Shown: positions 2,539 to 56,011 of the stretch, piece by piece
How positions within the stretch are numbered: position 1 is the first letter of the stretch
How the letters are laid out: every line of letters begins with the position of its first letter
Source of the DNA: a virus
Length of the DNA: 62,871 bases
Strand: one strand, 5' to 3'
Virus record (IMG/VR): IMGVR_UViG_3300046012_000093
Span: 1-62,871 of that record
Notes under the pieces: model-generated
Seen by the model: only the letters and a program-made list of their open reading frames with translations
Told to the model about the DNA's origin: nothing
Databases searched by the model: none
Program-made: the position numbers and the translations under genes

Positions 2539-2613
2539 GGCGATATAGTTCAACGGCAGAACGGGTGTTTTGTAATCATCAGATGACAGTTCGATTCTAG
2601 TCTTTCGCCTCCA
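2539..2613 (+). tRNA. tRNA-Thr (anticodon UGU)
   Basis: 75 nt with encoded CCA (2611-2613). Acceptor GGCGATA pairs with TTTCGCC apart from one mismatch; D stem GTTC/GAAC is perfect; the anticodon arm has loop TTTGTAA with anticodon TGT, closed by a weak U:U pair; the T arm has the TTCGATT loop but an imperfect stem. It begins at the base after the terL stop codon, so it is presumably processed from the late operon transcript. The stem defects leave it uncertain whether it is fully functional. Confidence 0.8.
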
Positions 2614-25671: not shown

Positions 25672-26445
25672 CCCACACAACAAGTATCAATAACTTTCTT
25701 GTCGTGCGCTGGACTATCGCATATATTAAATATGTTTCCAGTTCTTTCCACTACGGATAAAACCAATAACATATGGCTTGACATTAAACTTTACTGAAAT
25801 TTCTTCATTTGATAGACCTAATGGTAATAATTCGTATTTTATGATACGGACATTTTCATTTGTTAAGATAGCACGAGGATTCTTGTCCCCTTGAACTTTA
25901 CCGAGATAAGAATCTTTATGTTTTTGAAAGGCTATCTTTTGTCTTAATGATCGTTTTTCAGTAGAGTCTTTAATCCCTATAGCGATCTTAGTTGCTATAG
26001 ATGTCGCCTGTTTGTGTTTATTCGAATTCTCTAATAAATGGTACCACTCTGAATTTACACCCAGATAACCACCGCGTTGAGAATTCCATCCAATATTCTC
26101 ATCAGGACGAATATTGTTCTCAATCATGAGTGCGTCTTCTAAAGATAGATTTTCACATAAAATCTCTTTAATCAAGCTATCCCAACCATATTTATTTATG
26201 GCGTACTTGAAATGGGATTTTTGTTTATTAGACTTATGTGCGTATAACCTATTTCTGAAGTTCTTAGTGATTCCAATATATCCTGATTCATATGGATCAT
26301 TATGATCTTCTAAATGAATCCAGTAAACACAATACAATAATATCCCTCTCGCTTAGTCTCTCACGCTGGCATTACCCTTGCGCCCTGTCGGTTTGTTATT
26401 ACCTTCCAAGTCAATCAGAGAGGGTTTTAAATCCCCATAGTGTTT
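25672..26445 (-). other. Group I intron in ribonucleotide reductase
   Basis: 774 nt. P1 is clear: exon end AAUCCCU pairs with intron GGGGAUU, leaving the U-G wobble at the 5' splice site. Core element R includes GAGAGACUAAGCGA and S includes GCGAUAGUCC; GACUA (26354-26358) and UAGUC (25712-25716) form P7. The intron ends in G (25672). Splicing joins CCC-U to GU-AGC, restoring NPCSE. The GIY-YIG gene lies between R and S, so in the P8 loop. Both exons are in frame with the predicted junction. Confidence 0.93.
25726..26337 (-). CDS. Intron-encoded GIY-YIG homing endonuclease
   Basis: 203 residues. GIY-YIG motifs YCVYWIHL (2-9) and SGYIGIT (18-24), catalytic Arg in NFRNRLYAHK (R27 or R30) and Glu in MIENN (E73). 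The C-terminal part (SNEEISVKFNVKPYVIGFI) is a helix-turn-helix DNA-binding module like those of I-TevI-type enzymes. AT-rich unlike its neighbours. It should cleave intron-less reductase genes and spread the intron. Confidence 0.92.
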   Translation of the reverse strand: MYCVYWIHLEDHNDPYESGYIGITKNFRNRLYAHKSNKQKSHFKYAINKYGWDSLIKEILCENLSLEDALMIENNIRPDENIGWNSQRGGYLGVNSEWYHLLENSNKHKQATSIATKIAIGIKDSTEKRSLRQKIAFQKHKDSYLGKVQGDKNPRAILTNENVRIIKYELLPLGLSNEEISVKFNVKPYVIGFIRSGKNWKHI

Positions 26446-27403
26446 AGGGATTAGTTCCAAACTCGTGCTCTACGTCACGTCTTCCATTCAATCCTGCTTG
26501 TCGCTGGCTTGCGGCACGAGAGAATAGACCCCGTTCTCCCGATCTACTAGCGTATATAGATTTCCACTCATCAAGAAATAGTCCGACAGATGGACGTTCT
26601 TCATAGACGGCCGAGTTGTTACTGAGGGCTCTTTGGACGTCTTCTTCCCACCACGCACCTTGCTTCGCATCACGCATCCTTTGATCTGATAAATCCGAAA
26701 GAGAAATCATCGCAGAACGACGAACACCGCCGACTACTACTACCTCAGCGATTTTACATAAGATGTCGTGGCATTCTAATGTATTGAGACGACGTCCTGC
26801 GGCTTTTCTAAATGCCGCAACAGTGAATCCAAAGAGTGCGTCAAGGGGGCCAGGTCCACTAGAACGACCTCCAAAAGTCTTAAGTCTTGACCCGGCTGGC
26901 CTGAGGCAACTAAGGTCCCATGAAGGTTCTTGGCCTGCATAAAGAAGCGAGATAAGCTCTCGAAAAGCTCGGCACCATCCTGCCTTACTGTCTTCGACGG
27001 AAATGACAGTTCCGGATTTTTCGAAGTGTTCATTTACGACAGGCAGCCTTTCGACGTACTTACTTTCTACCGAAAAACCTACCCCACTACCATTCATCAA
27101 GATGTGCATCGTCTCGTCGAATGAGCGGGGTGAGTCTATTGGTAGATAAGAACAATTATAGGCACAGCCATGATCACGAGTCAATCCTGGTCCGGCAGAC
27201 ATTAGAATTCTCATCGACGGCATGACTTCTAGATTATAGATAGCCTGTCGAAGTTCATCAAATGGAATATCTTGCCCTTGGAATCTATCTCGAAACCAAT
27301 CAATCGTTCGATCTACAGTTTCATCCCAAGTTTCCCTACGGTTGTATTTGTCGATCCATCGTGAGTACCGACTAAGGTGTATAAATTTCTGGTAGTCGTT
27401 CAA
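26446..27403 (-). CDS. Class II ribonucleotide reductase, exon 1
   Basis: Encodes residues 1-319 and the first base of codon 320. Start is TTG 27403 with GAGGAG 5 bases upstream, overlapping the small upstream gene (TTGA). Conserved blocks: PSMRILMSAGPGLTRDHGC, YNCSYLPIDS, MNGSGVGFSVE, and a nucleotide-binding region with GGVRRSAMI. The pattern is that of monomeric B12-dependent RTPR-like enzymes. It ends EFGTNP before the intron; the in-frame TAA there is removed by splicing. Spliced length 621 residues. Confidence 0.93.
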
Positions 27404-39810: not shown

Positions 39811-41280
39811 TCAGGAGAATAACCTGTTACGAATCTGTTCTAGCGTCTGATAGTTCTCGATCTGACCGTTCCGGAAGACTTCTTTCAGAAGGCCCGACTT
39901 TTCTTGTTCGTGTGTCTGTTGGTCGTAGAGGATGAACTTTCCGTCTTCTTCTTCGACACGGAGGAGACCACGGGCAGATTTCTTCAGCCCTGAGTCTGTC
40001 TTCGGGTCTTTGAAGAGTTCTCTGTCTTGCCCGTCGACGACACCGAACGTCGCCTTGATCGCGGTTCCGAAGTTGTCCCTCGTGACGTGTTGGTACGTAT
40101 AACTTCCGATACCGAAGACGACATTCCCAGACGAGAAGCCCTTCTGCTTCAGACCTTCGAGGATTGCAGTAGCACGTTCAAGCGTGATCGAATCTCCGTA
40201 GATCAGTCCGACGTGACTGTCGAGCGTCCTGTGACCGTTCTCAGTGACAGTCCCACCAAAGACGTCCCAGAGACATTCGACTGCACCCTTGTAAGCAGGA
40301 GAACCTTCTTCTGCATCAGGATCACCGACGATGATCTTCACAGGATCACCAGAGTCAGGACGGAAGACTACCTTACCAGTCCTAGAAAGGATTTCTTCCT
40401 TCAACTCGACAGTGAATTCTGTCAATACTTGCCAGAAATCCCAGGTGTCAGACACGATGCTGACTATCCCTTCTGGGTAGGTCTCAGTCACTAGACGTCT
40501 GAACGTCTCGATTTCGTCGTCTTGTCCGCCCATACACATCACTGAGTGTTCTGTAGCAGGGACTGAGCCACCGACGAACGTCTCTCCACCGGCGTAGTAG
40601 TCTTCGAGGTAGTCAATCGCGGAGACTGTGTCTGTTCCTGTGAATGACAGGAGATGTCCTGCACCAGACTGAGCGGCGTCGTAGATACCCGACTGACCTC
40701 TCATAGAGAAGTCATGTCCCTGCCAAGGAACGAAACCTTCGTCTGCTCCAGTCGCCTTCGTGTACTTCTCGATCAGACGACGATATTCATAGGCTGTCGT
40801 CGCCGACGTGATAGATTTCCAGATCGAGGCGGATAGTTGTGTCTCGACGTAGTTCGTCAACCAGAAGAAACGAGGGTCTGTGTTCTTGATCGTAAACAAC
40901 GGGACACGGATGTCGACTCGACTACCTTCTGGGAGGGCCTTGATCGACAACGGGAGGAATCCTAGATCGTGAAGTTCCTCGATGTGTGAGACATCGACGT
41001 TCTTCAGTCCGAGCGATTGTTCTAACCGACGTCGATAACGACTGACGATCTCTTTCTTCGGTCTGTCGAAGAACTCCTTGTTCCATAGGTCTGTCAGCAA
41101 CCACTGACAAACACCTTGGAGTCCGAAGAACACGACCTTGTGATCGAAGTCAGGAAGGACACTCGCGAACTTGTCAGAACGACAGGTGAAGTTCGAGTAG
41201 ACGAGTTCAGTCCCCGGAGGGTACTGTTGTCTGTGTCCTGTCTTGTAGAAGTCTGTCGCATGTAGTGGAGAGAGTTTCAT
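39811..41280 (-). CDS. nadV: Nicotinamide phosphoribosyltransferase
   Basis: 489 residues. Joins nicotinamide and PRPP to give NMN. Conserved features: DFYKTGHRQQYPPGT at the N-terminus, GHDFSMRG (D190, R194) and the phosphorylated-His motif VPATEHS (H245). Its partner prs lies 2 bases upstream and supplies PRPP. NadV-Prs pairs occur in other phages such as KVP40, and NAMPT-based pathways are known to restore NAD+ consumed by host defence. No NMN adenylyltransferase was seen, so the host enzyme would finish NAD+. Confidence 0.96.
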   Translation of the reverse strand: MKLSPLHATDFYKTGHRQQYPPGTELVYSNFTCRSDKFASVLPDFDHKVVFFGLQGVCQWLLTDLWNKEFFDRPKKEIVSRYRRRLEQSLGLKNVDVSHIEELHDLGFLPLSIKALPEGSRVDIRVPLFTIKNTDPRFFWLTNYVETQLSASIWKSITSATTAYEYRRLIEKYTKATGADEGFVPWQGHDFSMRGQSGIYDAAQSGAGHLLSFTGTDTVSAIDYLEDYYAGGETFVGGSVPATEHSVMCMGGQDDEIETFRRLVTETYPEGIVSIVSDTWDFWQVLTEFTVELKEEILSRTGKVVFRPDSGDPVKIIVGDPDAEEGSPAYKGAVECLWDVFGGTVTENGHRTLDSHVGLIYGDSITLERATAILEGLKQKGFSSGNVVFGIGSYTYQHVTRDNFGTAIKATFGVVDGQDRELFKDPKTDSGLKKSARGLLRVEEEDGKFILYDQQTHEQEKSGLLKEVFRNGQIENYQTLEQIRNRLFS

Positions 41281-41282
41281 GA

Positions 41283-42086
41283 TCAGATTCTTTCTAGTTT
41301 CCAGTCTGATACGTCACCGAAGACGTTCGGACAATAAATCTTGTCGATAAGATCATCGAAGACGTTGAACCCTTTACTGAAGATACCGTGAGTCACATAG
41401 AGAGAGACTGATCCAGAACCATTTCGCTTCAACTCTTTAGCGAGTTCGATGAACGTCCGACCTCCGTCACAGATGTCGTCGACTATCAGACAAGGTTCGT
41501 CTGACAAGCGACCGTTGATATGGAGGACTGTACCAGTGATCTCACCTGTGTCGACGTCTCGTTTCTTGTCGGCGTTCAGGACATCGAGACCTAAGACCTT
41601 CGAGACTGCGTTGATCTTCTTCAACGCTCCGGCGTCAGGCGAGACGATGACAGTACGCTTCGGGAGGTTTCTGATTCCCTTGACGAAGGATTCTTGTCTG
41701 ACATTGTACGAACGGTCGAGTAGAGCCATAGCGACTTCACTGTGGATGTCCCAGACTTCGACTGAGTCATACTTCTGAGCGTTAATCAGATCAGCGAAGA
41801 CCTTCAACGACAGACTCTCACCAGGAGCACAGACTCTGTCCTGTCTGGCATACGGGACATACGGACAGACGAGGTTGATCGGGATGTATCCGTATGTCCG
41901 CCGGAGAGAGTCTGTCATGACGAGCAACTCCATGACGTCCGCCGAATTCCTCAGATCAGCCCTGATCAGAATACGACTAAGAGACTTCGGAATCTTATCT
42001 GTGTATAACTTGACGTGGATTTCTCCACCTGGAAAGATAAATGATTCGAACGAAATCTCAGTATCAGACGAGACTCGAAGTGACAT
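41283..42086 (-). CDS. prs: Ribose-phosphate pyrophosphokinase
   Basis: 267 residues from ATG 42086 (MSLRVSSDTE); a longer frame from 42233 overlaps the upstream gene and lacks homology. PRPP loop LIVDDICDGGRTF, ATP/ribose sites VCPYVPYARQDR and VSPDAGALKK. Makes PRPP from ribose-5-phosphate, feeding NadV. Shorter than bacterial Prs (about 315), with the N-terminus trimmed as in other phage Prs. Confidence 0.92.
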   Translation of the reverse strand: MSLRVSSDTEISFESFIFPGGEIHVKLYTDKIPKSLSRILIRADLRNSADVMELLVMTDSLRRTYGYIPINLVCPYVPYARQDRVCAPGESLSLKVFADLINAQKYDSVEVWDIHSEVAMALLDRSYNVRQESFVKGIRNLPKRTVIVSPDAGALKKINAVSKVLGLDVLNADKKRDVDTGEITGTVLHINGRLSDEPCLIVDDICDGGRTFIELAKELKRNGSGSVSLYVTHGIFSKGFNVFDDLIDKIYCPNVFGDVSDWKLERI

Positions 42087-42088
42087 AG

Positions 42089-42313
42089 TTACCTCTTCAT
42101 GAAACTCGGCGTCCCCCAACGACCGAAACCTACTTCGATCTCTTCGTCGTATTCGGACAGTGAACTCTCGATAGAGTTGATCTTTGCTTCCTTGTCGTAA
42201 TCCTGGAGCGTTTCTTGGACTACAGAGAGACACTCAGTACACGGCATGATTTTCTTGTCTCGTGGATCGAGACGGACTTCGTTCATCTCGGCGTTACAGA
42301 TATGGCACTTAAT
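42089..42313 (-). CDS. Zinc ribbon protein with apparent AUU start
   Basis: 74 residues if started at ATT 42313, 65 from ATG 42286. The extra N-terminal residues supply CHIC, which with CTEC at residues 25-28 completes a two-knuckle zinc ribbon (spacing like KCxxC...RLDPR...PCTEC, a common small phage protein). An in-frame TAG lies upstream and no ATG/GTG/TTG intervenes; GAAGAGGAAG ends 6-8 bases before ATT. The remainder is acidic and helical. Immediately upstream of prs. Confidence 0.7.
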   Translation of the reverse strand: MKCHICNAEMNEVRLDPRDKKIMPCTECLSVVQETLQDYDKEAKINSIESSLSEYDEEIEVGFGRWGTPSFMKR

Positions 42314-42332: not shown

Positions 42333-42551
42333 TTATACTGAAGCTAATGTGAAAGCCAGACAGAGAAGAAATGACACGATTCCGATTCGGAGTGTCACTT
42401 TCTTGACCTGTCGATTCCGTAGAGTCGTGTCGTCGTCATCCCATGAATAGTGTTTCATGTCTGTACACGACCAACCTACCCACGAGACTATACAGACTAT
42501 TCCGGAGAATGCTGCCAAGATTATTGCGTATATCTGTGCTTTGTCAGTCAT
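42333..42551 (-). CDS. Small membrane protein, two segments
   Basis: 72 residues with two hydrophobic segments (about 6-28, IYAIILAAFSGIVCIVSW, and 55-70, IGIVSFLLCLAFTLA), separated by an acidic-basic loop (DDDDTTLRNRQVKK). Overlaps the end of the GNAT gene. Unknown role. Confidence 0.7.
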   Translation of the reverse strand: MTDKAQIYAIILAAFSGIVCIVSWVGWSCTDMKHYSWDDDDTTLRNRQVKKVTLRIGIVSFLLCLAFTLASV

Positions 42552-42861
42552 TTCTCTTCCTCACACACGACCAGAGTTCGACAGTATGTCCTGTCTTTCG
42601 TGAATCAAACGCTTCACAGAGTTTCCAGCCTGTAGAAGCTAGGAGATGTCGTTGAGCGACATTCTCACGATCTACGGTACAGATCATCATGTCATAGCCG
42701 AATTCGTCGAAGACTATCCTCTGACGTTCCAGATTGGCCTTCGTCCCAACACCGTTACCCCTGTGGTCTTTAGGAACGTAGACCGAATGTGAGACGACGA
42801 CTTGTGAACATCCAGGGAGGCTGGTGAGTTCACCTATGACATCTTCGATGTTCATTCTCAT
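42544..42861 (-). CDS. GNAT acetyltransferase-like protein
   Basis: 105 residues. Acetyl-CoA loop as VYVPKDHRGNGVGTKA (R/Q-x-x-G-x-G/A type: RGNGVG) followed by a helix and FGYDMMICTVDRENVAQRHLLASTGWKL, the GNAT C-terminal pattern. Overlaps the ATP-grasp stop by ATGA. GNAT-like enzymes accompany amidoligase systems in other genomes, so it may N-acylate the product. Confidence 0.8.
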   Translation of the reverse strand: MRMNIEDVIGELTSLPGCSQVVVSHSVYVPKDHRGNGVGTKANLERQRIVFDEFGYDMMICTVDRENVAQRHLLASTGWKLCEAFDSRKTGHTVELWSCVRKRND

Positions 42862-43607
42862 GAGTAGTGTTTCCTGAATGCTTCTGCGTACTTTTGGATC
42901 GTCTGGCCTTCGAGACCGGGACCTGTGTTGATCTCTAGGCAGTAGGCGGAGGCTTGCTTGCGATTATAAATAACATCGACAGCACCAAAATCAAGACCAG
43001 AAGCATCGAAGATCAACTTCGCTTGGTCGTTGACATCGTCTGGAACAACGACACCGTCTCTCGCAAAGATAAACCCGTTAACGTGAGATCGAACCTTCCA
43101 GTCTGTGGGTTCTTTCTCAGGGTCACGGATTTTTCTCTGGACGTCAATGCATTCCCCTCCGACAAAATGCAGACGGTATTCAGAGTCCTTTTTAATGTAT
43201 TTCGTATAGAGCGGCGCCTGTGGTAACTCGGTCTCATCTTCGTCTCCACATATAATTATACCATTACCAGAATGGCCTGTCAAGACCTTTCTGGCGACGA
43301 CGACATGTCCTTCTCTCCGCCATTCTTCGGCGGCTTCTTTCTCGTCTGTCCAAGGAACGCAACGACCACTGTCATGCATATGATCGAAGAACTCAAGCTT
43401 GTTGGCCATCCGACCGACGCACTCAGGACTATTGATGACACGACAACCAAACAGAGAGTCAGGAAGATGAGAACAACCCCAATTGATGACCGTTCTGCCG
43501 GACCGAGGTCTGAATGCTGATCCTTCACGTCGTATTCTCCTGAAGCCTCCGGCGACAGCCAGGGCTTTCATTCCGTTGCTTGGTCTCGATGAATAGAGAT
43601 ATAACAC
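42858..43607 (-). CDS. ATP-grasp ligase
   Basis: 249 residues from GTG 43607 with AGGAG upstream. Features: pre-ATP strand MANKLEFFDHM, glycine loop KVLTGHSGNGI, YTKYIKKDSEYRLHFV and the Mg-binding EINTGPGLEG. ATP-grasp enzymes join a carboxyl group to an amine through an acyl-phosphate. Sits between GNAT and amidoligase, in a cluster predicted to make or modify peptides. An internal consensus promoter lies at 43255-43283. Confidence 0.9.
   Translation of the reverse strand: MLYLYSSRPSNGMKALAVAGGFRRIRREGSAFRPRSGRTVINWGCSHLPDSLFGCRVINSPECVGRMANKLEFFDHMHDSGRCVPWTDEKEAAEEWRREGHVVVARKVLTGHSGNGIIICGDEDETELPQAPLYTKYIKKDSEYRLHFVGGECIDVQRKIRDPEKEPTDWKVRSHVNGFIFARDGVVVPDDVNDQAKLIFDASGLDFGAVDVIYNRKQASAYCLEINTGPGLEGQTIQKYAEAFRKHYS
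43255..43283 (-). promoter_or_regulatory. Consensus sigma70 promoter inside the ATP-grasp gene
   Basis: -35 TTGACA (43278-43283), 17-base spacer, -10 TATAAT (43255-43260): identical to consensus at all 12 positions. The overlapping codons (GGT ATA ATT ATA) are rare in this genome, which usually writes Ile as ATC, suggesting the promoter is selected. It would drive the GNAT, membrane protein, zinc ribbon, prs and nadV genes separately from the amidoligase genes. Confidence 0.75.
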
Positions 43608-43615
43608 CTGATCTC

Positions 43616-44812
43616 CTATAGGTTGTCGTCGAATATCCGACGCGGTCGAGCAGCACGACGACGAGGTGGTTGGGGCTGAGGTTGTGGAGCAGGTTCAGGT
43701 GCTCGTGGACCGTTCGGATTGAGACCAATACCAGCAAGGAGTTCCGCGGCCCTAATCCTCTCCCTGAGTCTGTCATGTTCGCGGACTCTGATTTCTTCTT
43801 CGACTGGTGCGGGAGGGACTAGATCATGAATATCTACAAACCTATGCCTAAGTGGCATCGGACGTTGCGCCTGTATATCTAGTCGGCCAGCAGCGAGAGC
43901 ACCATCGAATTCAGCATCCCATCCACCAGGTTCACGTTCTTTCTTCTCCTCGATCTTCCCTTCTCCTTTCGGAGCCCAGACTGGGATCGCATAGGCTAGG
44001 TCCTGAGCTAACCTGAGACCTTCCCAGAGCTTTGCCTGGAAGTCTGGAATACGCCAGAGGAGATAGTTGAAATCACGGAAGACATTCTGACAGAAGACTT
44101 GGAGACCTTTCTGAGAGAACTCTCTGACGACGTCTTGAGGGTTGTCATATTCGAGTGAGGCGTCCTTCAACCGAAGAAGTATCGAGACCCAACGGCTTAT
44201 ATCAGTCGGATTGTCACATCCTCGGTGCTGTCTGAATTCGAGCGATCCGAAACTAGCGAGAGCGGCGACGTTACACGCATGATACTTCAGGTGTTCAGGG
44301 TCGTTCAGATAACCGACATTCTGGTTCTTCAACGACTGACCCAGAAGATTCAAGACGTTCTCGGCGTCCTTCAACCTCAGACAGAAGAGGTTACCAGAAC
44401 GGAGCTTACCTCCGACGTAGTCCGTCAAGACCTCTTCGAAGATGTAATACAACGTCAGCCATGTCATGACTTGACGGAACGACAACTCCTGGGCGTTGAC
44501 GTGGACATGGACAGACGTCCTCTGTGACAACTGGACTTCAGCGAAAGACGACGTCAGTTTCTTCTTCAGATATTCGAGTGACTTCAAGACGTCGTCACGG
44601 GAGATTGCCCGCTTCAACGTATATTCTTGAGGGTTATGACCTTGGAACGGACGGAGTGATCCGTCGTTGTGGGCGTTCCAGTAATACTGCATCGCCCCGG
44701 CAGGAAGATTCAATCCTTCGAGTTCGATCTCGATTCCGACTTCACCTTCTACCTTATGTCCGACATTTCTAAGACCGAAGAGATCATAGATTGTCTTGTC
44801 GTACCAAGTCAT
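43616..44812 (-). CDS. Amidoligase family protein (type 2)
   Basis: 398 residues. Begins with the glutamine-synthetase-fold signature VGIEIELEG (residues about 24-32) and has the SVHVHVNAQELS segment and LEFRQHRGCDNP, where Glu, His and Arg form the ATP/metal site of amidoligases. C-terminal 70 residues are Pro/Arg-rich and disordered (EPAPQPQPQPPRRRAARPRR). Predicted to ligate an amino group to a carboxylate using ATP. Next to a second, distinct amidoligase. Confidence 0.85.
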   Translation of the reverse strand: MTWYDKTIYDLFGLRNVGHKVEGEVGIEIELEGLNLPAGAMQYYWNAHNDGSLRPFQGHNPQEYTLKRAISRDDVLKSLEYLKKKLTSSFAEVQLSQRTSVHVHVNAQELSFRQVMTWLTLYYIFEEVLTDYVGGKLRSGNLFCLRLKDAENVLNLLGQSLKNQNVGYLNDPEHLKYHACNVAALASFGSLEFRQHRGCDNPTDISRWVSILLRLKDASLEYDNPQDVVREFSQKGLQVFCQNVFRDFNYLLWRIPDFQAKLWEGLRLAQDLAYAIPVWAPKGEGKIEEKKEREPGGWDAEFDGALAAGRLDIQAQRPMPLRHRFVDIHDLVPPAPVEEEIRVREHDRLRERIRAAELLAGIGLNPNGPRAPEPAPQPQPQPPRRRAARPRRIFDDNL

Positions 44813-45450
44813 TTCACAGGGACTCCGATTTCATTCAGTGATTCGAGGAGATGTCGACACCGTTCAGGAAGGACGAACTGTTGACTCTCATGACGACGAG
44901 CGACGGGGCTTCCTTTGTAATAGAGGTTCTGACTTCCGAATCCGTCTACGGCGACTGAGAACCTCCGATGGACCGCCCAAGGACGGACGAATTCATGCGT
45001 CTTGTAATGATCAGAAGACTTCTTGACGGCTTCTTCCATCGACGGATATTTGTTTGACACGAGGTCATTCAGATAGTCTGTCTGAAGGATGTTGTTCCAC
45101 GAGAAGTGTGACGGGTACGTCTGTTCGTCGTCTTGATACACGACGTTACGTTGGTTCACACCTTGCTGTCGTCCTCTCATCGCGACACGACGGAGATAAG
45201 TCGCTCCCCGGTCTCCGTAGTTGATGTAACCCAACGGGAAGACCGTATAGATGAGTCGCTCGTCTTCTAACGGTACGATGAAGAATTTAGACTCGCTGTA
45301 CGGAAGTCTGGACAATCTGACAGCTACCTTCCGTTCACCGCCGACCTCGACAGTAGTTTCTCTGTCGACGAACGCAGCCTGTCCGTCATAGATGACGTAA
45401 GTATGACGGAGACGATAGTTGCATTCTTCTATGTTGTCATACGCAGGCAT
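44809..45450 (-). CDS. Hypothetical in the amidoligase cluster
   Basis: 213 residues, Tyr/Arg-rich, mixed strand pattern (VIYDGQAAFVDRETTVEV; FFIVPLEDERLIYTVFPLGYINYGDRG). ATGA-linked to the amidoligase. Placement between two amidoligases suggests it is a substrate or scaffold; no known family. Confidence 0.7.
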   Translation of the reverse strand: MPAYDNIEECNYRLRHTYVIYDGQAAFVDRETTVEVGGERKVAVRLSRLPYSESKFFIVPLEDERLIYTVFPLGYINYGDRGATYLRRVAMRGRQQGVNQRNVVYQDDEQTYPSHFSWNNILQTDYLNDLVSNKYPSMEEAVKKSSDHYKTHEFVRPWAVHRRFSVAVDGFGSQNLYYKGSPVARRHESQQFVLPERCRHLLESLNEIGVPVK

Positions 45451-45453
45451 GTC

Positions 45454-46287
45454 TTACCCCTGAAGAACCGACAGATCAAGTCCGACGGCTTGTGATAGAT
45501 TCTTTCCGTGGACCGTCGTGTGCCAGTCGATGACGTTACAGTTGATGATGTCTTGGGCATGGTTCTGGTACATGCTCTCGGCTGACTTACCGTCGAAGAG
45601 ATCACGAGTCGCCTTGACCGAGTTATCGAAGACGAACTTCATCAATTTCTCAGACCTCAACCAGGCGTTACTCGGAACCCTGTACTCGACACCGTACGGC
45701 TTGATCCGACACGCTCCGGCTCGACCGTACATCGTCCGACGACGGTTATCGTGGTCCCATATCAGAGATGGCATCCCGACGTAATAGTCGAGTTGTCGAG
45801 CGACAGCCATACAGTCCATGACGTGGGCGACGTCAGTCACTTCATGGTTCTCTGTCCATCCGATGTGGATGTGACCTGCGGCAGTCCTCATCGGTTGAGA
45901 ACAGTCAGGGGGAACGTTCGGTTGTTGCATCCAGGCGTCGAAGTCTGGATTACACCCGAGTTCCTTCGCGAAGTCTGGGATGGTCTCGAAATATGTCTCG
46001 TCGAAGACTGCGACAGGAAAGTCCGAGAAGACATACCCTGGAGTCGTCTCTGCTGTCATTTCTCGGAGAGTCTTCATGACAGACTGGATATTTCGGATGA
46101 ACTCGTGTGACGTCACCGCAGGGTTGATGTTGAATTCGACGGCCGTTCCGTCTACTTGGACAGCACCGTATGGGACGTTGAAGGGCTTCTCCTTCGTCCC
46201 AGGTACTGCCATGTGAGCCGAGATTGGTGCTCCGCTGTTAGGGTTATAAAGGAAAATCTCGGGATCACAACCGATCTTGATTTGCAT
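45454..46287 (-). CDS. phiEco32-like amidoligase-type 2 protein
   Basis: 277 residues. Opening KIGCDPEIFLYN, then QVDGTAVEFNINPA, TAAGHIHIGWTE and GVEYRVPSNAW give the acidic and His residues of the amidoligase/GS-like active site. Best described as the phiEco32-like phage amidoligase family. Could use ATP and ammonia or an amine to modify an acid, with ammonia delivered by the amidotransferase upstream. Confidence 0.88.
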   Translation of the reverse strand: MQIKIGCDPEIFLYNPNSGAPISAHMAVPGTKEKPFNVPYGAVQVDGTAVEFNINPAVTSHEFIRNIQSVMKTLREMTAETTPGYVFSDFPVAVFDETYFETIPDFAKELGCNPDFDAWMQQPNVPPDCSQPMRTAAGHIHIGWTENHEVTDVAHVMDCMAVARQLDYYVGMPSLIWDHDNRRRTMYGRAGACRIKPYGVEYRVPSNAWLRSEKLMKFVFDNSVKATRDLFDGKSAESMYQNHAQDIINCNVIDWHTTVHGKNLSQAVGLDLSVLQG

Positions 46288-46316
46288 CTCTGTCCTGTCC
46301 TAGTTTGATGCGATTA

Positions 46317-47825
46317 TTACTTGATGATTCGTCCGCCCTGCTTCAACATGGCAGCGACGTTCTCGTCTACGTCGTCTAGATGATCGATACAATAGACTTG
46401 ACCCAGATAGAAGACACAAGGGTCTTGCCAACTGATGTCGTCTCCACACCAGTTACAACCTTCGACGGTGCGATCTTCGAACTGCTTCTTAGATAACTTG
46501 TCGCCGTGCTCGTCGATGTACGTCAGTTGACGATTCTTCTTGTTGTCGTGAGCATGGATGTGACGGTGCTTCTGCTTCCTGTTCTCACGGACACGATCAG
46601 CGAGACTGATCACTTCATGGGCTTCGTTCTTTTCGTGGGTCTCGTTGACTTTCTCAGTGATTTCTCGCGCTTGTTCTAGAATCGTATCAGTCTGATTCTC
46701 GATAGTCTGTGCGAATTCTTCTCGGAGTTCTTCCGGTGTCTTTCCTCCGAAGAGACGCTCACCGACTGTCGTCGGTACTGCCGTAGTCGAGACAGGGATC
46801 ACGATAGGTTTACACCTAGGACAGATACATTCCTTCCGGTGTGGGATGTTTGGATTCGGAGGAATCAGAACGGTAGTGGACACCGCAGTCGACGTCGTTC
46901 CTGCTTGAGCAATAGCCTTTCTCTCTTCCGCTCTCTCCTTGAGAGCCTCGTCGAAGGGAATCCAACGCTTCCTGTTGTTACAGTAGTATCCGTTCTGTCG
47001 TTTGGGGTCCCAGTTAAAAGGAGGTGCTCCGTATCCTGCCGAGACTTGTCCGTACTCAAATTCCGAACTGCTCGTCGATCCACTCTCGTAGGTTGGGCTG
47101 ATGCGAAAAAAATCGTCCTTCCTACCCTCCAGCTTTTCCCTCTCTGGAGCTTCGAAGACGCCACTACCCTTCGGAATCTCCCAAGAGAGAACCGTGTTCG
47201 CCGGGACTTCATAGACCTTGTCGTACTTGATCGCATTCCGAAGAAGTGCGGCGTGGAGCATCGGAATCTCAGACGCCCAGAAAATCTTCTGTCGGTTCTC
47301 AGAGAACGCATAGAAGAGAGGACGCTGATGATTCCTCAAGAAATTCAATCGCTTGTAAGTCTTGTCGTACCACGTCAGAGCCCAAGCTCCGAACATCAGC
47401 TTCAACGTCTCGTCGTAACCGATGTCTTCGAACGCATGAAAGATGCTCTCAGAGTCTGTGTCGAAGTGTGTGTTACCGGGTAGGGCGTTCTTACTCGACC
47501 TAGACAGGGTCCCGTTATGACATCCGACTAGACTCTTGAACTCGAACGGATGGGCGTTGTCGTAGTTGATCTTTCCTTGTGTCGCCTTCCGACAATGTCC
47601 GATGATGACACGATCACTCGGGTTGACTAGTTGATGGAAGCCCTTCGTGTTGACGAAGTCGTATGATGGAATAGTCGCCTTGAACAACCTCGTGTTGAAT
47701 CCGCCATCGACGGCGGCGATACCAGTGCTGTCATCACCTCGGAGAGCCGTCATGTATAGAAGGTCTCGAAATGCGTCACAGTCCGGTGAATAGAGGTTTC
47801 CGGCGATTCCTGCTAAGCCGCAGAT
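46317..47825 (-). CDS. Class II glutamine amidotransferase, apparent AUC start
   Basis: 502 residues if started at ATC 47825; 478 from ATG 47753. The family's nucleophile must be residue 2 after Met. Here the codons read ATC-TGC-GGC, giving (M)CGLAGIAGN, preceded by CAGGAGAG 6-8 bases upstream; an in-frame TAA at 47844-47846 and no other start lie between. The ATG reading loses the Cys. Other motifs: GDDSTGIA, GHCRKATQG, HNGTLSRSS. The C-terminal part has a zinc-like CNWCG...C...CIDH site. Releases ammonia from Gln, probably for the amidoligases. Confidence 0.88.
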   Translation of the reverse strand: MCGLAGIAGNLYSPDCDAFRDLLYMTALRGDDSTGIAAVDGGFNTRLFKATIPSYDFVNTKGFHQLVNPSDRVIIGHCRKATQGKINYDNAHPFEFKSLVGCHNGTLSRSSKNALPGNTHFDTDSESIFHAFEDIGYDETLKLMFGAWALTWYDKTYKRLNFLRNHQRPLFYAFSENRQKIFWASEIPMLHAALLRNAIKYDKVYEVPANTVLSWEIPKGSGVFEAPEREKLEGRKDDFFRISPTYESGSTSSSEFEYGQVSAGYGAPPFNWDPKRQNGYYCNNRKRWIPFDEALKERAEERKAIAQAGTTSTAVSTTVLIPPNPNIPHRKECICPRCKPIVIPVSTTAVPTTVGERLFGGKTPEELREEFAQTIENQTDTILEQAREITEKVNETHEKNEAHEVISLADRVRENRKQKHRHIHAHDNKKNRQLTYIDEHGDKLSKKQFEDRTVEGCNWCGDDISWQDPCVFYLGQVYCIDHLDDVDENVAAMLKQGGRIIK

Positions 47826-47843
47826 TGTAGTCTCTCCTGGGTT

Positions 47844-48185
47844 TTAGATTCGGGTGAACGTCTCGTTCCAACGGTCGATGGATGTCGGCGCTGGGTGACT
47901 CTTCAATAGAACACCACCGTTATAAGATAACGAGAAGACGTAACCCTCTTCGATGGCGACGATTTTTCTAGTCCAATTAGGGAGAGTACTTCCCTTGAAT
48001 ATGAATGTCTGGCCGACCTCTGGTGGTTCAGGCAGAGGGGGAAGGACTTCCTTTATGTCCTCTGGTGTGAGATAACAAAAACGACCACCCGAAGTGAGAG
48101 CATTCCAGTATTTAACACCGGAAAAATTCACACTGTCACCCAGAGTGAGTTTGACGAGGACTCGACACTTAGGGGCTGGGGTCAT
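47844..48185 (-). CDS. Member 1 of a five-paralogue family
   Basis: 113 residues. Shares with the tandem genes at 50.0-51.4 kb an N-terminal LGDSVNF, a central PEDIKEVLPPLPEPPEVGQTF and a C-terminal IVAIEEGYVFSLSYNG plus TSIDRWNETF. Its stop is the TAA just before the amidotransferase start, and its own start overlaps the class I amidotransferase stop. Small beta-barrel domain likely. Separated from the other four by 1.8 kb. Confidence 0.75.
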   Translation of the reverse strand: MTPAPKCRVLVKLTLGDSVNFSGVKYWNALTSGGRFCYLTPEDIKEVLPPLPEPPEVGQTFIFKGSTLPNWTRKIVAIEEGYVFSLSYNGGVLLKSHPAPTSIDRWNETFTRI

Positions 48186-48862
48186 TGTTCGTCCTTCCGA
48201 TCAAAGAAACGGTCGAGTAGTTCGAAGAAGTACTTCGTACACTCAGGGTAACCGTCATATTCAGGATGTGGTTGGAAACACAGAGACCTGTTATTCGGAT
48301 ACCAGAGGACTTCGTCGTCGAAGAGGATTTCTTTCAGTCCGAACTTCGGGTCTGTTATGGCGTCCCAGCCACAATTCGATCCACGTTTGAACCGGGCTTG
48401 ATTCGTCGCCGCTACTCGGATGAGATCACCCTTCGAATTCGGCATCATCATCTGGTGGTGTGTGCTAGACACCGGAATGACCCGACCAGACTTGATGTCG
48501 ACGACAGGATGGTCGATAGTGTGTTGGCCGACGTGTTGCCACAGACGGCCGCCGTTCATGACGTTCAGAAACTGAGCGCCGCGACACACACCGACAAGAA
48601 ACTTATGACGGCGTGTCGAATTCTCGAATACAGAGACATCTTGTCGGTCCCTTTCTGGATCGAATCTCGTAGTGCCTAACGGCTTCTCACCGTACAATTC
48701 AGGGTTGATGTCGAGTCCGCCGGTGAAGAGGACGATGTCGGCTTCGGCGGCTGTTTTGACACCGTAGTATTCGTCTTTCTTCTGGGCGAACATCTGGACG
48801 AAGCCGAACTGTCCAGGCCCCTGGATGAAGACAGACAGTTTGTCGTTATTCTGGGTCGTCAT
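48182..48862 (-). CDS. Class I glutamine amidotransferase-like / gamma-glutamyl hydrolase
   Basis: 226 residues. Nucleophile Cys93 in GVCRGAQ, catalytic His199 and Glu201 in FQPHPEY; FTGGLDINPELYG is typical of the PuuD/peptidase C26 branch that cleaves gamma-glutamyl amides. In an amidoligase cluster it may trim or recycle gamma-glutamyl products, or supply ammonia. Start overlaps the next gene upstream. Confidence 0.9.
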   Translation of the reverse strand: MTTQNNDKLSVFIQGPGQFGFVQMFAQKKDEYYGVKTAAEADIVLFTGGLDINPELYGEKPLGTTRFDPERDRQDVSVFENSTRRHKFLVGVCRGAQFLNVMNGGRLWQHVGQHTIDHPVVDIKSGRVIPVSSTHHQMMMPNSKGDLIRVAATNQARFKRGSNCGWDAITDPKFGLKEILFDDEVLWYPNNRSLCFQPHPEYDGYPECTKYFFELLDRFFDRKDEQ

Positions 48863-49208
48863 CGTTGAATGTGTTCTCCGAGGCTGGGTTGTTCTTCAGG
48901 AAGTATAGATAAATCCTGTGGTCGTGGTTCTTGTTGACAGAAGGCTTCGTACACTGGAAGCCTTGTTCTTTCAGAAGACGACCGAATCGTTGATGTTGGT
49001 ATCCGTTCAGGAAAGCCACCGAGAACGCCAGATGCTTTCCGGCTGCGACTTGGTCTTTCAGACCCTGGGCATACTTTTCCTTGACGTATTCAAACGCTTC
49101 TTCATTGAGTTCGTCGTCTTCACCTTCTGTATCGTCAGAATCACGAAAACCGAAACCATGGATGATTTGTGCGCCGCAACAATCGACGACACCAGACCGT
49201 TGAAACAT
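48846..49208 (-). CDS. Hypothetical, amidoligase cluster
   Basis: 120 residues. Opens with VDCCGAQIIHGFGF and has an acidic linker, then KHLAFSVAFLNGYQHQRFGRLLKEQGFQ. Cys-Cys start and an alpha/beta core could be enzymatic, but no family is recognised. Overlaps both neighbours. Confidence 0.68.
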   Translation of the reverse strand: MFQRSGVVDCCGAQIIHGFGFRDSDDTEGEDDELNEEAFEYVKEKYAQGLKDQVAAGKHLAFSVAFLNGYQHQRFGRLLKEQGFQCTKPSVNKNHDHRIYLYFLKNNPASENTFNDDDPE

Positions 49209-49708
49209 CAGACTTCCTCTTCTTGGAACGCGGCTTTATATTGAGGTTGTTGGAGTTCTTTGAGACTACCCTTCTCACCTTTTTCCAGAGGTGGTAAATA
49301 AGGTGATCTAGGCATCTCTGAATTGACGGGGCATGGATATGGATTGATCCAGAGGTAATAGCCGAGATTTGATCCCGGAGGGTGTGCCGGATTAGGACGT
49401 TGTCCGACCTTGATGAATCCTACGTCTAGAAATAGGTCCTCGTACTTCAACATCTGGGAACCCATCAAGACGGCATAGACGAACGCCTTCTTGTACATCG
49501 GATAATGTGGAGGGGCTATTACACCCTTTTTTCCTTGTTCAGTATAGTGATCTTGATTCTCGGGTTCTCCTGGAAGTCCTGAGAATTGGAAGTCTTTACT
49601 CGCCAACCTCTTGAGTTCATTTCCGACTGCTTCTCTAGAGAGGCCGGCGATTTGAGAATAGACACCACAGTCCCCACAGCCGGTGCCACGGACATACGTA
49701 AACATCAC
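49208..49708 (-). CDS. Hypothetical, amidoligase cluster
   Basis: 166 residues. N-terminal GTGCGDCGVYSQIAGLSREAVGNEL segment with three Cys and Pro/Tyr-rich C-terminal half (PRSPYLPPLEKGEKGS). Start overlaps the deaminase stop (ATGA). Unknown function. Confidence 0.68.
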   Translation of the reverse strand: MMFTYVRGTGCGDCGVYSQIAGLSREAVGNELKRLASKDFQFSGLPGEPENQDHYTEQGKKGVIAPPHYPMYKKAFVYAVLMGSQMLKYEDLFLDVGFIKVGQRPNPAHPPGSNLGYYLWINPYPCPVNSEMPRSPYLPPLEKGEKGSLKELQQPQYKAAFQEEEV

Positions 49709-50085
49709 TCAGTCCATTCGATCCTTTTTATGTCAAACGCATCAAGGGCAGCCATACAGCCCAGGCATGGTCTTGCGAGGGCAGGCTGTCCGTTTTTAAG
49801 AACACGGGCGATTGCGACACGATCTATCGTAATCCCTTTCTGGAATGCCCGCGCGAGCCCGTGAATCTCGGCGTGGAGATAGAGTCTGTCAGGGTGTGTG
49901 CAGAAACGAGCCTGAAGAGGATGGGTCTTGAATTGGTTCAGACCGACAGTGAAATCTCGGCCGTTACTGAAGACGGCCGCCATCCTAGGGAGTTTCTGTA
50001 TCGGGTTCCGTCTGGCGTGGAAGACGGCAGTATCAAGGAACGAGGACAAATTCTCTGTCGAAGTCCTTTCTCGGCCAAGAGACAT
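49705..50085 (-). CDS. Cytidine deaminase-like zinc enzyme
   Basis: 126 residues from ATG 50085, or 114 from TTG 50049. Zinc motif HAEIHGLARA (His and catalytic Glu) and RPCLGCMAAL (two Cys) define the deaminase fold. Substrate could be dCMP, another nucleotide, or an amino compound of the cluster. Its 5' end overlaps the upstream gene by about 50 bases, the longest overlap here, so the start is uncertain. Confidence 0.82.
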   Translation of the reverse strand: MSLGRERTSTENLSSFLDTAVFHARRNPIQKLPRMAAVFSNGRDFTVGLNQFKTHPLQARFCTHPDRLYLHAEIHGLARAFQKGITIDRVAIARVLKNGQPALARPCLGCMAALDAFDIKRIEWTE

Positions 50086-50398
50086 AGCCGGACAAATCAG
50101 ACTCAGACAAGTCTTTCCGTCTCGTCATGACGATGATGTCATTCATAAAGACGATGATTCGAATAGGGTCTGACGGTATATTCATATTACGGATGACAGT
50201 GTCACCGACCTTCAGGGGTCGTGGAAGGACCGTATGGACCTTGTCAGTGAAGAACAACATTCCGTTGGACGATACCATTGAGCCGTCTGGTTTACAGAGA
50301 TAAGCTTTGAAAGTGCTCCTCGATGCCTCAGAGGTGTTCTCCGCCACTTCAGAGACGAGCATCCGAACAAGGATATGGTCACCGATCTTGATTTTCAT
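50033..50398 (-). CDS. Member 2 of a five-paralogue family
   Basis: 121 residues, the most diverged copy. Shares KIGDHILVRMLV at the N-terminus and LPRPLKVGDTV in place of the PPEPPxPGE hinge, then a IIVFMNDIIVMTR strand pair. Start overlaps the next copy's stop by ATGA. Confidence 0.7.
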   Translation of the reverse strand: MKIKIGDHILVRMLVSEVAENTSEASRSTFKAYLCKPDGSMVSSNGMLFFTDKVHTVLPRPLKVGDTVIRNMNIPSDPIRIIVFMNDIIVMTRRKDLSESDLSGYVSWPRKDFDREFVLVP

Positions 50399-50730
50399 GT
50401 TTTCCTCTTATATGTATTCAGGAATGATCTTAATTGGGTCGCCTTCGCTGGCATCCAGTGATCACTCTTGTTTCGTAAACTATAGAAATAGAAGACATAG
50501 TCGTCTTGTACAGAGACGATCTTTGTCTCATAATCCCAACAGAACCAGATTTCCCCTGGATTCGGTGGTTCAGGAGGCTTGGGAATGACCTCCTTGATGT
50601 CGTCATTCATGACAGACAATTCATGAATCATCCCATGTATTCCCTTGAGATGGACTGTCGTCCATGTCTCAGGATTGTATCTATGGGTTGTCACATGGAG
50701 GACGACAGTGTCACCAGGATTAGATTTCAT
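50395..50730 (-). CDS. Member 3 of a five-paralogue family
   Basis: 111 residues. Clear family landmarks: NPGDTVVLHV, DDIKEVIPKPPEPPNPGEIW, IVSVQDDYVFYFYS and SDHWMPAKATQLRSFL. Closest by eye to members 1 and 5. Predicted two-part beta domain joined by a Pro-rich hinge. Confidence 0.75.
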   Translation of the reverse strand: MKSNPGDTVVLHVTTHRYNPETWTTVHLKGIHGMIHELSVMNDDIKEVIPKPPEPPNPGEIWFCWDYETKIVSVQDDYVFYFYSLRNKSDHWMPAKATQLRSFLNTYKRKT

Positions 50731-51059
50731 TTTTCCACCAACATGAAAGAAGACAGAAAGAGTCTGCGATTCATAGATTGATAAGACTTGACATCACTAC
50801 CAACCCTAAAGACTACGTCGTCTTTGTCAATTCCAAAGACGCTGACGATTTCTCCGTCTCGGAGTCTTTGAAATTTGTCGTCGACTTTTATTACCCTCTC
50901 TAAGAGAGTCGTCTTGTCTGCCTCGACAAAGTAGTTCACCGTCTGTGAATATCTGTCATACCGACGATTGAGGGGGCTGATTATGAGTTCTTTCTCATCC
51001 TCGACTCTATCAACACGAGCTTCAATCAGGACGGTGTCTCCGACACGGAATTTCATCAT
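50727..51059 (-). CDS. Member 4 of a five-paralogue family
   Basis: 110 residues. N-terminal FRVGDTVLIEARVDRVED and a C-terminal IVSVFGIDKDDVVFRVGSD strand pair and LFLSSFMLVE end correspond to the family, but the Pro-rich hinge is reduced to VIKVDDKFQ. ATGA overlaps on both sides. Confidence 0.7.
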   Translation of the reverse strand: MMKFRVGDTVLIEARVDRVEDEKELIISPLNRRYDRYSQTVNYFVEADKTTLLERVIKVDDKFQRLRDGEIVSVFGIDKDDVVFRVGSDVKSYQSMNRRLFLSSFMLVEK

Positions 51060-51409
51060 AACACCCTAGTCTTGAGTCCCATGAAATGAGCGACTGTACA
51101 AGGACACATACCAGGACGCCAGTCATCGGACGGATTATTTTTATAGAAAGAGAAGACGACACCGTCGACGATTGCAGCAATCTTCCATCGTCCGTCAGAC
51201 TCTTCTTTGTTCTTCCAGATTTCTCCGGGGACAGGAGGTTTCGGTGGACCCTTCTCATGATGACGGATGTCTGTCGAATCGAAATAGACGTGTTGAGTCG
51301 TCTTCTGCTCGTCTTTATTCAGAATTCGACCACAATGGAACTTATTGTTCTCACCCACATAGACAATCTCGATGCCCAGAGTGACGACATCACCCATTTC
51401 TAACTTCAT
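51056..51409 (-). CDS. Member 5 of a five-paralogue family
   Basis: 117 residues. LEMGDVVTLGIEIVYVGE, KGPPKPPVPGEIWKNK, IAAIVDGVVFSFYKNNPSDDW and CTVAHFMGLKTRV match members 1 and 3 in order. First of the four tandem copies in the direction of transcription. Confidence 0.75.
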   Translation of the reverse strand: MKLEMGDVVTLGIEIVYVGENNKFHCGRILNKDEQKTTQHVYFDSTDIRHHEKGPPKPPVPGEIWKNKEESDGRWKIAAIVDGVVFSFYKNNPSDDWRPGMCPCTVAHFMGLKTRVL

Positions 51410-51439
51410 GTCTTATCCCTCTCTAAACTCAATTCTGCC

Positions 51440-51901
51440 TCAGCGATTCTTCCAATCCCCAGAACGGATCGGCGACGCCGCGATGTCTCTGTTGAATTCG
51501 TAGACGTAGGCTGGAGTCCCGTGGACGTCGATGACCTTACGGAGATATAGACTTCCGGCGTGGTCATCTTCACGATAACCTTCGTATCCGTCAAGGGCTT
51601 GTAGGACATCTTCGTCTTTGATCTTGAAGAGATCACCACAAAAAGTAAAAACACCGGGACTATCAAGCCGTATGCCGGGAAAAGAACCAAGATTGAAAAT
51701 ACGACCAGGGACTCGATAGTTTCCCACATATTCCGTCCTATTTTCTAGTTTTTGGTACGCTCTCTCGCCGAGGCGGAGCGTACCATAGACGAATACGTGG
51801 TTGACTTCGGTCTTGGGGCTGATCTCAATCCTTAGGTCCCCAGTCTTGGCTTGATCTAAGTTCTTCGAGAGTTGAGAGTCGTTCGAAAGTCTGTCGTTCA
51901 T
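51440..51901 (-). CDS. Gamma-glutamylcyclotransferase-like (AIG2/GGCT)
   Basis: Up to 153 residues. Core: VFVYGTLRLGE (substrate loop YGTLR), LDGYEGYREDDHAG with the acidic catalytic region, and AYVYEFN. GGCT-type folds cleave gamma-glutamyl amines or recycle gamma-glutamyl tags and accompany amidoligases. ATG 51901 lies 77 bases inside the upstream gene; ATC 51823, 6 bases after AAGG, gives a natural (M)SPKTEVNHVFVYG start. Confidence 0.85.
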   Translation of the reverse strand: MNDRLSNDSQLSKNLDQAKTGDLRIEISPKTEVNHVFVYGTLRLGERAYQKLENRTEYVGNYRVPGRIFNLGSFPGIRLDSPGVFTFCGDLFKIKDEDVLQALDGYEGYREDDHAGSLYLRKVIDVHGTPAYVYEFNRDIAASPIRSGDWKNR

Positions 51902-52427
51902 CTTCTGTCATCCATGTGTGTTTACACTTGTTGAAGACCCGACCGTAGAGTCGGACGTCGTTGGTTGAGTTTCCGTTCTTCGCCGTCATCAACGGGAAGA
52001 ATCCACAGTCCAGAAGTATCGGTTCTAGTGGGACGTATAGTGGAAGGCCCGGCGAACCGTATGCCTGTGTCTGAGTCAGAGACGCGAAGACCATACCAGC
52101 CTTCTCGACGTAACTACTCCCCATCAACGCCGGATTCCACATCAACGTCGGTTCGTTACAGAATGACAGGAGTTGTTCCGTCATTTCTTTCTTGTAGTTC
52201 TCTACGGCCCGGTCTTTTCGTTCTTGATCTTTCTTGTAATATTCCCAGACGTTCGTCAGAGGTGAGAAACCATGGATACATATGATTCCACAGTCAGACG
52301 GCATCTTAGCCGCCACGAAATAATTATCAGCATGACGGCTCTGACGTCCGTTAGCATCCACGGTCTGTCCCCGGAACGGATACGTCTTGAAAGACGAGTC
52401 GTCTAGATCAAGAATCTTAGTCGTCAT
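51825..52427 (-). CDS. Hypothetical, first gene of the metabolic operon
   Basis: 200 residues, alpha/beta pattern (DCGIICIHGFSPLTN, TEQLLSFCNEPTLMWNPALMGSSYVEK). First gene after the promoter at 52469-52497. Gly/Ser-rich IHGFS recalls a hydrolase turn but no full family motif is present. Confidence 0.72.
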   Translation of the reverse strand: MTTKILDLDDSSFKTYPFRGQTVDANGRQSRHADNYFVAAKMPSDCGIICIHGFSPLTNVWEYYKKDQERKDRAVENYKKEMTEQLLSFCNEPTLMWNPALMGSSYVEKAGMVFASLTQTQAYGSPGLPLYVPLEPILLDCGFFPLMTAKNGNSTNDVRLYGRVFNKCKHTWMTEDERQTFERLSTLEELRSSQDWGPKD

Positions 52428-55924: not shown

Positions 55925-56011
55925 TGGTGGGAGGGTGTGGAGTTGAACCACTCCGAGAGACTCGGCGACAGATTTACAGTCTGTCTGCTAGACCGCCAGC
56001 TTTCCCCGCCC
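55925..56011 (-). tRNA. tRNA-Tyr (anticodon GUA)
   Basis: 87 nt with encoded CCA. Acceptor GGGCGGG/CCCTCCC (one mismatch), anticodon stem ACAGA/TCTGT with loop CTGTAAA (anticodon GTA), long variable arm CCGAG-TCT-CTCGG expected of bacterial tRNA-Tyr, and T arm GTGG-TTCAACT-CCAC. May serve Tyr codons in late genes; processed from a leftward transcript. Confidence 0.92.

Follow-up and report, generated by a model that had tools for sequence, protein, structure and literature searches.

The virus record IMGVR_UViG_3300046012_000093 of IMG/VR is a stretch of 62,871 nucleotides, taken here at its full length and called the window. Between positions 42544 and 51901 it carries a single leftward run of genes for enzymes that form and cleave amide bonds, and this locus is a divergent example of a cassette already known from other lytic phages. 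At its core are two ligases of the glutamine synthetase superfamily, a RimK-like ATP-grasp ligase, a class II glutamine amidotransferase (GATase) and a previously nameless fifth protein, which by sequence form an obligate set. The best explanation, to which about an even chance is given, is a module specific to lytic phages that makes γ-glutamyl-type amide bonds early, is able to trim them, and has the dose of its GATase lowered by an AUC or AUU start codon.

The conserved core of the cassette

Three alignment scans of IMG/VR, one scan of 84,980 bacterial and archaeal genomes and a set of annotated records yield 261 loci, 199 of them non-redundant; in 107 of these the COOH-NH2 ligase gene is flanked by 6 kb or more on either side. 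The COOH-NH2 ligase, class II GATase, Amidoligase_2 and ATP-grasp enzyme occur together in all 107 of the well-flanked cassettes, a recurrence far beyond chance, and the gene order is the same in most cassettes. The fifth core protein is present in 105 of the 107. A class I GATase of the Peptidase C26 type (76 of 107) and a γ-glutamyl cyclotransferase, GGCT (43 of 107), complete the picture, one or both being found in 103. An earlier note on this DNA, made from its letters, had read the cluster, one leftward operon with many overlaps of 1–4 bases, as a candidate pathway of peptide ligation or modification whose mix of enzymes is known from phiEco32-like phages. The operon and its junctions are as described, all the listed enzymes lie on the minus strand, and the search of relatives bears out the conserved gene set. 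The idea of a shared amide-bond pathway is supported; the acetyltransferase of the GNAT family, like the deaminase and the small genes without an assignment, falls outside the conserved core.

Relatives are found in 317 phage records for the COOH-NH2 ligase and in 313 for the class II GATase, with nearly identical host genera and all below 60% identity; a megablast search of the cluster against phages gives no match. The same neighbourhood is present in the annotated genomes of PA11, CW02, PaP3, phiEco32, Slicky01 and two oyster-associated Zobellviridae. Among the 84,980 bacterial and archaeal genomes the COOH-NH2 ligase has 15 matches, all on metagenome-assembled contigs that are possibly phage, and the cassette is essentially absent from cellular genomes. 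The set has already been named a putative peptidoglycan modification cassette or module, as a prediction (PMC5498523, PMC11945000); its genes are listed without that name in other reports (PMC3890496, PMC3517423, PMC6209634), and the idea of a cassette has been traced back to Iyer and colleagues (2009) and Hardies and colleagues (2013) (PMC5498523, PMC10580990). The window holds both ligases, the ATP-grasp enzyme and the class II GATase in one operon with GGCT and a class I GATase, the composition of the phiEco32/RIO-1-type cassette. The cassettes of RIO-1/PSA-HP1, phiEco32, 7-11, PA11, tf, LUZ24, PaP3 and CW02 (PMC5498523) have the same enzymes in mostly the same order, whereas the proteins of the window are below 60% identical to those of every phage in the collection, the window adds the GNAT protein, a deaminase and small paralogues, and its GATase starts at AUC. 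Lytic phages of E. coli, Pseudomonas and Vibrio conserve this set of enzymes strongly, and the definition of a five-gene core, including the formerly nameless protein, indicates which genes to delete or reconstitute jointly.

The active sites of the window's enzymes are intact. For the two ligases, the ATP-grasp enzyme and the class II GATase, every invariant residue of the eight-member alignments that was looked up is present. The COOH-NH2 ligase retains 22 of 22 invariant residues of a 76-sequence alignment and has the conserved acidic and His residues of the metal/ATP site. Its AlphaFold2 model (predicted local distance difference test score, pLDDT, 94.5; all such models were built from alignments without rows from phage records) finds glutamate-cysteine ligase as its best fold match in the PDB, with YbdK and glutamine synthetase also among the closest, at template modelling scores of about 0.45 that place it at superfamily level only; its profile has no match among PDB sequences at E≤1. 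Amidoligase_2 has its invariant catalytic-type residues. The ATP-grasp enzyme scores 12.8 bits against the Pfam RimK profile, below the cut-off of 21, and is classed as RimK-like only; its family membership is backed by phrog_2599 and by its nearest solved relatives, the α-L-glutamate ligases/RimK, and its conserved residues are present. Long C-terminal extensions are seen in the ATP-grasp proteins of Slicky01 (L006 11477–13363, 628 amino acids) and phiEco32 (L008 12857–14050, 397 amino acids) and are absent from the version of 249 amino acids in the window. Peptidase C26 has the GVCRG nucleophile and the HHQ and HPE motifs, with a complete Cys-His-Glu triad, and GGCT has the YGTL loop and a catalytic Glu in EGY; both score above their profile cut-offs. 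Neither of the two observations that the earlier note had named as telling against its reading, degenerate active sites in the ligases and ATP-grasp enzyme or genes carried singly and out of context by related phages, is made: the sites are preserved and the genes travel as a set.

The fifth core protein has no Pfam match and is highly divergent in sequence. Its AlphaFold2 model has a mean pLDDT of 92.1 (100 aligned sequences). No solved structure in the PDB matches it at E≤0.001, and the top partial matches cover 60-residue pieces of SH3/Tudor-like domains. The model matches phage proteins only, with strong matches among viral models that include the CW02 homologue. We infer that it is a scaffold or a substrate-binding subunit. 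The earlier note had picked out neither this gene as core nor the AUC start.

AUU and AUC start codons of the class II GATase

A mechanical open reading frame call starts the class II GATase of the window at ATG 47753, which leaves the protein without its nucleophile Cys. The frame offers no ATG, GTG or TTG after the last stop ahead of that Cys, and the start is therefore placed at ATC 47823–47825, directly before the TGC codon of Cys2 (47820–47822); the in-frame sequence reads stop-AAC CCA GGA GAG ACT ACA ATC TGC GGC. Extending the protein to this codon raises its PHROG scores, and the family profile aligns residue 2 with Cys1 of PurF and GlmS. Arg79, Thr82, Asn104, Gly105 and Asp124 are present, and the full set of N-terminal-nucleophile features (Cys2 exposed after Met removal, Arg, Asn-Gly, Asp) is obtained only with the ATC start. 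The C-terminal part of the protein is variable and has Cys-rich motifs.

Such starts, which bacteria hardly ever use, recur across the relatives. The codon before the nucleophile Cys in 178 usable GATase genes is ATG in 134, ATT in 25, ATC in nine, TTG in six, GTG in four and ATA in none, so that 34 of the 178 (19%) have an AUU/AUC start, compared with none of 191 COOH-NH2 ligase genes lacking a canonical start (Fisher p 3e-12). The corresponding counts are 0/183 for the amidoligase, 0/151 for the ATP-grasp enzyme, 0/92 for C26 and 2/72 for GGCT, in all four of which the anchors lie deeper than in the COOH-NH2 ligase and the control is weaker. Four ATP-grasp genes that seemed to lack a start codon proved to be an artefact of the anchor and disappeared with a better one. 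An independent, unbiased pattern scan of IMG/VR DNA returns 41 ATT/ATC-started genes that score as cassette-type GATase, 38 of them on stretches with another cassette gene and three where none was found; these numbers are not frequencies, and ATG-started genes are covered only among the matches listed, where the GlmS-, AsnB- and PurF-like genes are all ATG-started.

It is very improbable that the AUU/AUC starts are not real and reflect errors of sequencing, readthrough, or initiation further upstream with later removal of a propeptide. PurF-type enzymes can carry a short propeptide, and in a few relatives a canonical codon stands in frame 5–26 codons upstream, but 22 of 150 GATase genes have no ATG, GTG or TTG anywhere from the preceding stop to the Cys, against none of 167 ligase genes in the same strict count. 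The Shine-Dalgarno spacing is also right for the AUU/AUC codon, and near-identical pairs of loci differ exactly there (TTG in L177 and ATC in L046; ATG in L208 and ATT in L199). Assembly error is no explanation, because the isolates phiEco32, SU10, Bas89, IME180 and RHph_N3_13 agree in showing such starts. In the first three the ATT start is annotated as such, and the SU10 GATase has been detected by mass spectrometry with nine peptides (PMC4281155); a gene of this kind is therefore translated. In IME180 (L268, ATC) and RHph_N3_13 (L266, ATT) the GATase is annotated 42 bases too late, and in 172-1 (L269) further downstream still. Each of these annotations omits the catalytic Cys, and a clone built on one of them would lack the nucleophile.

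Neutral drift of genuine AUU/AUC starts, with strong Shine-Dalgarno sites and operon coupling making the codon unimportant, is a more serious proposal that we nevertheless regard as somewhat unlikely. At least 25 changes of the trait are counted on the GATase tree, and the frequent switching back and forth between close relatives speaks for drift. The Shine-Dalgarno sites are indeed strong, with a match at ATT/ATC starts as good as or slightly better than at the others (means 5.26 versus 4.78, p 0.02). The missing ATA has a mechanical cause, since ATA-TGY creates an out-of-frame ATG; an argument from mutation bias built on this absence was dropped for the same reason. Under drift the neighbouring ligase genes should change equally, yet none of the COOH-NH2 ligase, amidoligase or ATP-grasp genes counted above lacks a canonical start, the last two being controls weakened by their deeper anchors.

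The possibility that AUU/AUC starts are confined to the GATase was considered and rejected, as primase and DNA polymerase cases were found. In the same loci, 10 of 120 primase/helicase genes (apparent cases in L014, L029, L074, L169, L171 and L021/L024) and seven of 74 DNA polymerase genes (apparent cases in L006 16611–18491 of isolate Slicky01, L171, L249, L169 and L201) have no canonical start before the first conserved motif, and in most of them a Shine-Dalgarno site precedes an ATT, ATC, ATA or CTG where the start is expected. These phages thus make a wider habit of starts of the AUU/AUC class, with the GATase as the strongest case. Single ATT starts are already annotated in deposited phage records and that part is not new; no report of the pattern in phages was found in the literature searched.

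The bacterial genes infC and sigR, which start with ATT or ATC (in E. coli and Streptomyces infC, respectively) and GTC (in sigR), are repressed by initiation factor 3 (IF3), and few such bacterial genes have been characterised (PMC5472188). The GATase gene of the window has the sequence features of this type, namely a start of the AUU/AUC class behind a strong Shine-Dalgarno site, with no canonical start that could be used, and here too dose may matter. It differs in that the phage starts recur across many lineages and are interchangeable with AUG, and that control by IF3 is a prediction. The AUU/AUC starts suggest an IF3-sensitive dosing of the glutaminase. The phages provide a natural series of dozens of such starts, including the near-identical pairs that differ at that codon.

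Proposed chemistry and competing readings

Amide-bond assembly around glutamate is the best-supported chemistry, because the closest folds activate a glutamate carboxylate, class II GATases supply ammonia, and C26 and GGCT enzymes cleave γ-glutamyl amides. In the proposed scheme the GATase would free ammonia from glutamine; the ligases, with ATP, would couple a glutamyl-type carboxylate to ammonia, to an amine or to an amino acid; extension of the product would fall to the ATP-grasp enzyme; and C26 or GGCT would remove or resolve the γ-glutamyl group, with the fifth protein serving as a scaffold or substrate binder. The AUC or AUU start would lower synthesis of the GATase and make it sensitive to IF3, keeping free glutaminase scarce relative to the ligases. 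The acceptor would most likely be a host envelope peptide, such as the stem peptide of peptidoglycan, whose alteration would change the cell surface early, for example against superinfection; this envelope target, proposed by analogy, is the least certain part. The cassette genes are reportedly expressed immediately on infection in HP1 (PMC7082346) and are early genes in SU10 (PMC4281155). A change to the host therefore fits better than a change to the virion, and of the two targets that the earlier note had suggested, cell wall or virion, the latter has become less likely.

There is precedent for such a target. AsnB/LtsA-type enzymes amidate diaminopimelate in the stem peptide. Glutamine-dependent amidation of the stem peptide by MurT-GatD is likewise an established reaction (PMC5871853, PMC3267633). 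Unlike these systems, the window has neither a Mur ligase nor an asparagine-synthase domain, and combines a class II GATase with separate ligases of the glutamine synthetase superfamily and the ATP-grasp type. In γ-glutamyl shuttles (PuuA/PuuD; BtrJ/BtrG of butirosin) a glutamine synthetase-like or ATP-grasp ligase is paired with a C26 hydrolase or GGCT, whereas the window unites a class II GATase with two glutamine synthetase-superfamily ligases, and no oxidase or carrier protein was found there.

The pairing of a glutamine synthetase-like ligase with a C26 hydrolase is a hallmark of Puu-type γ-glutamyl pathways, and together with the HHQ motif of C26 and the location of the cassette among nucleotide and replication genes it would suit a soluble γ-glutamyl metabolism (for example of γ-glutamylated amines as in the Puu route, or of another amide) that feeds replication or counters host defence. 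Such a role is improbable: a Puu-type pathway would need neither two further ligases nor the ATP-grasp enzyme and class II GATase, and no oxidase or dehydrogenase stands alongside the set. Tagging of proteins, with the RimK-like enzyme attaching glutamate-type residues to a protein of the host (or of the phage) and the remaining enzymes building or removing that tag, is decidedly improbable. The nearest solved relatives of the ATP-grasp enzyme are RimK-type ligases and phrog_2599 is named after S6 modification, but this name reflects similarity only, and there is no conserved carrier or substrate protein except the highly divergent fifth protein. An amide-linked hypermodification of DNA bases, which the position of most relatives' cassettes next to DNA replication genes might bring to mind, is scarcely credible. 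The relative tf has DNA that HaeIII cuts and that was cloned from RsaI, HpaI, EcoRV and SmaI digests (PMC3517423), ordinary restriction that speaks against bulk DNA modification in tf. In the part of the window's proteins that was scanned, an ordinary thymidylate synthase, ThyX, is all that was seen, with neither a base hydroxylase nor a hypermodification enzyme.

An early γ-glutamyl amide module with a restrained GATase remains the preferred reading, and several points count against it. No product, substrate or target of the cassette is reported in the literature found, nor was metabolomics evidence found in the literature searched, and the assignment to peptidoglycan is by analogy only. The tendency of C26 and GGCT towards mutual exclusion (Fisher p 2e-10) follows phage clades and so is not independent evidence. 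The start codon is not specific to the cassette, because the primase and DNA polymerase of these phages do likewise; weak initiation is not required, because 134 of 178 cassettes use AUG for the GATase; and the slightly stronger Shine-Dalgarno sites at AUU/AUC could mean compensation for a poor codon, not selection for low yield. A broader and more tentative proposal, which we would rate below an even chance, is that a large group of lytic phages keeps five proteins as an obligate module for amide bonds, the fifth of them with a fold unseen in solved structures, and repeatedly lets IF3 set the dose of the module's glutaminase (and sometimes of primase and DNA polymerase) through AUU/AUC-class starts. 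If true, this would be a layer of translational control in phages that is not described in the literature found.

Gene layout and neighbouring features

Several junctions in the run overlap by 1–4 bases, and its features are collected in the table. The GNAT protein, the deaminase and the small paralogues and unknown genes are, judging by the few or absent relatives in the compared loci, accessory. The GNAT protein has no relative among the compared cassette loci, and neither do the three small paralogues, which are scattered through the operon. The deaminase keeps its zinc motif HAE...PCLGC intact and has relatives in 14 loci, the window included. In the row of four small genes, the first and third may be diverged members of the paralogue family. 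The phrog_8299 protein and the product of 51825–52427 (minus strand) show weak mutual similarity. The true start of GGCT may lie further inside its open reading frame.

Table. Features of the amide-bond cassette in the window
Feature	Role	Position	Strand	Evidence
GNAT acetyltransferase	accessory	42544–42861	-	PF00583, 21.6 bits (cut-off 20.7)
RimK-like ATP-grasp ligase	core	42858–43607	-	phrog_2599, E 2.8e-76
Amidoligase_2	core	43616–44812	-	PF12224, 34.1 bits (above cut-off); phrog_7469
Unnamed fifth protein	core	44809–45450	-	phrog_11055
COOH-NH2 ligase type 2, glutamine synthetase/glutamate-cysteine ligase fold	core	45454–46287	-	PF14395, 37 bits (above cut-off); phrog_3815
Class II GATase, 502 amino acids	core	46317–47825	-	PF13522 (above cut-off)
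Shine-Dalgarno AGGAG, 8 nucleotides before the AUC start of the class II GATase		47834–47838	-	read in sequence: ...CCCAGGAGAGACTACA-ATC-TGC
Small paralogue	window-specific	47844–48185	-	paralogous with 50395–50730 and 51056–51409
Class I GATase/Peptidase C26 (γ-glutamyl hydrolase type)	near-core	48182–48862	-	PF07722, 70 bits
Unknown protein	accessory	48846–49208	-	phrog_8299; relatives in 28 loci, window included
Cytidine-deaminase-like zinc enzyme	accessory	49705–50085	-	PF00383, 22.5 bits (cut-off 25; sub-threshold)
Four small genes in a row: 50033–50398, 50395–50730, 50727–51059, 51056–51409		50033–51409	-	at least two in the paralogue family
γ-Glutamyl(amine) cyclotransferase GGCT/GGACT	near-core, alternative to C26	51440–51901	-	PF06094, 58.6 bits

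Directly downstream of the cassette and on the same strand lie genes for NAMPT (39811–41280) and ribose-phosphate pyrophosphokinase (41283–42233, minus strand). The two form an NAD salvage pair, a type of gene pair that has been linked to defence evasion. Isolate Slicky01 has this pair too, some 3 kb upstream of its class II GATase gene, and a few phiEco32-like loci also have it close to the cassette.

The ribonucleotide reductase gene (24764–27403, minus strand) is split. The part at 26444–27403 ends in ...EHEFGTNP, the part at 24764–25690 resumes in the same conserved stretch, and a GIY-YIG homing endonuclease (25726–26337) lies between them. This is probably an intron in the region of the active site; Rfam gives no intron match for the split. 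ARAGORN reports a tRNA-Tyr at 55925–56010 (minus strand), where Rfam gives a tRNA-Sec (to 56011) barely above the cut-off; this tRNA, with a long variable arm, is most likely Tyr. A weak Rfam tRNA at 2539–2609 (plus strand) is missed by ARAGORN.

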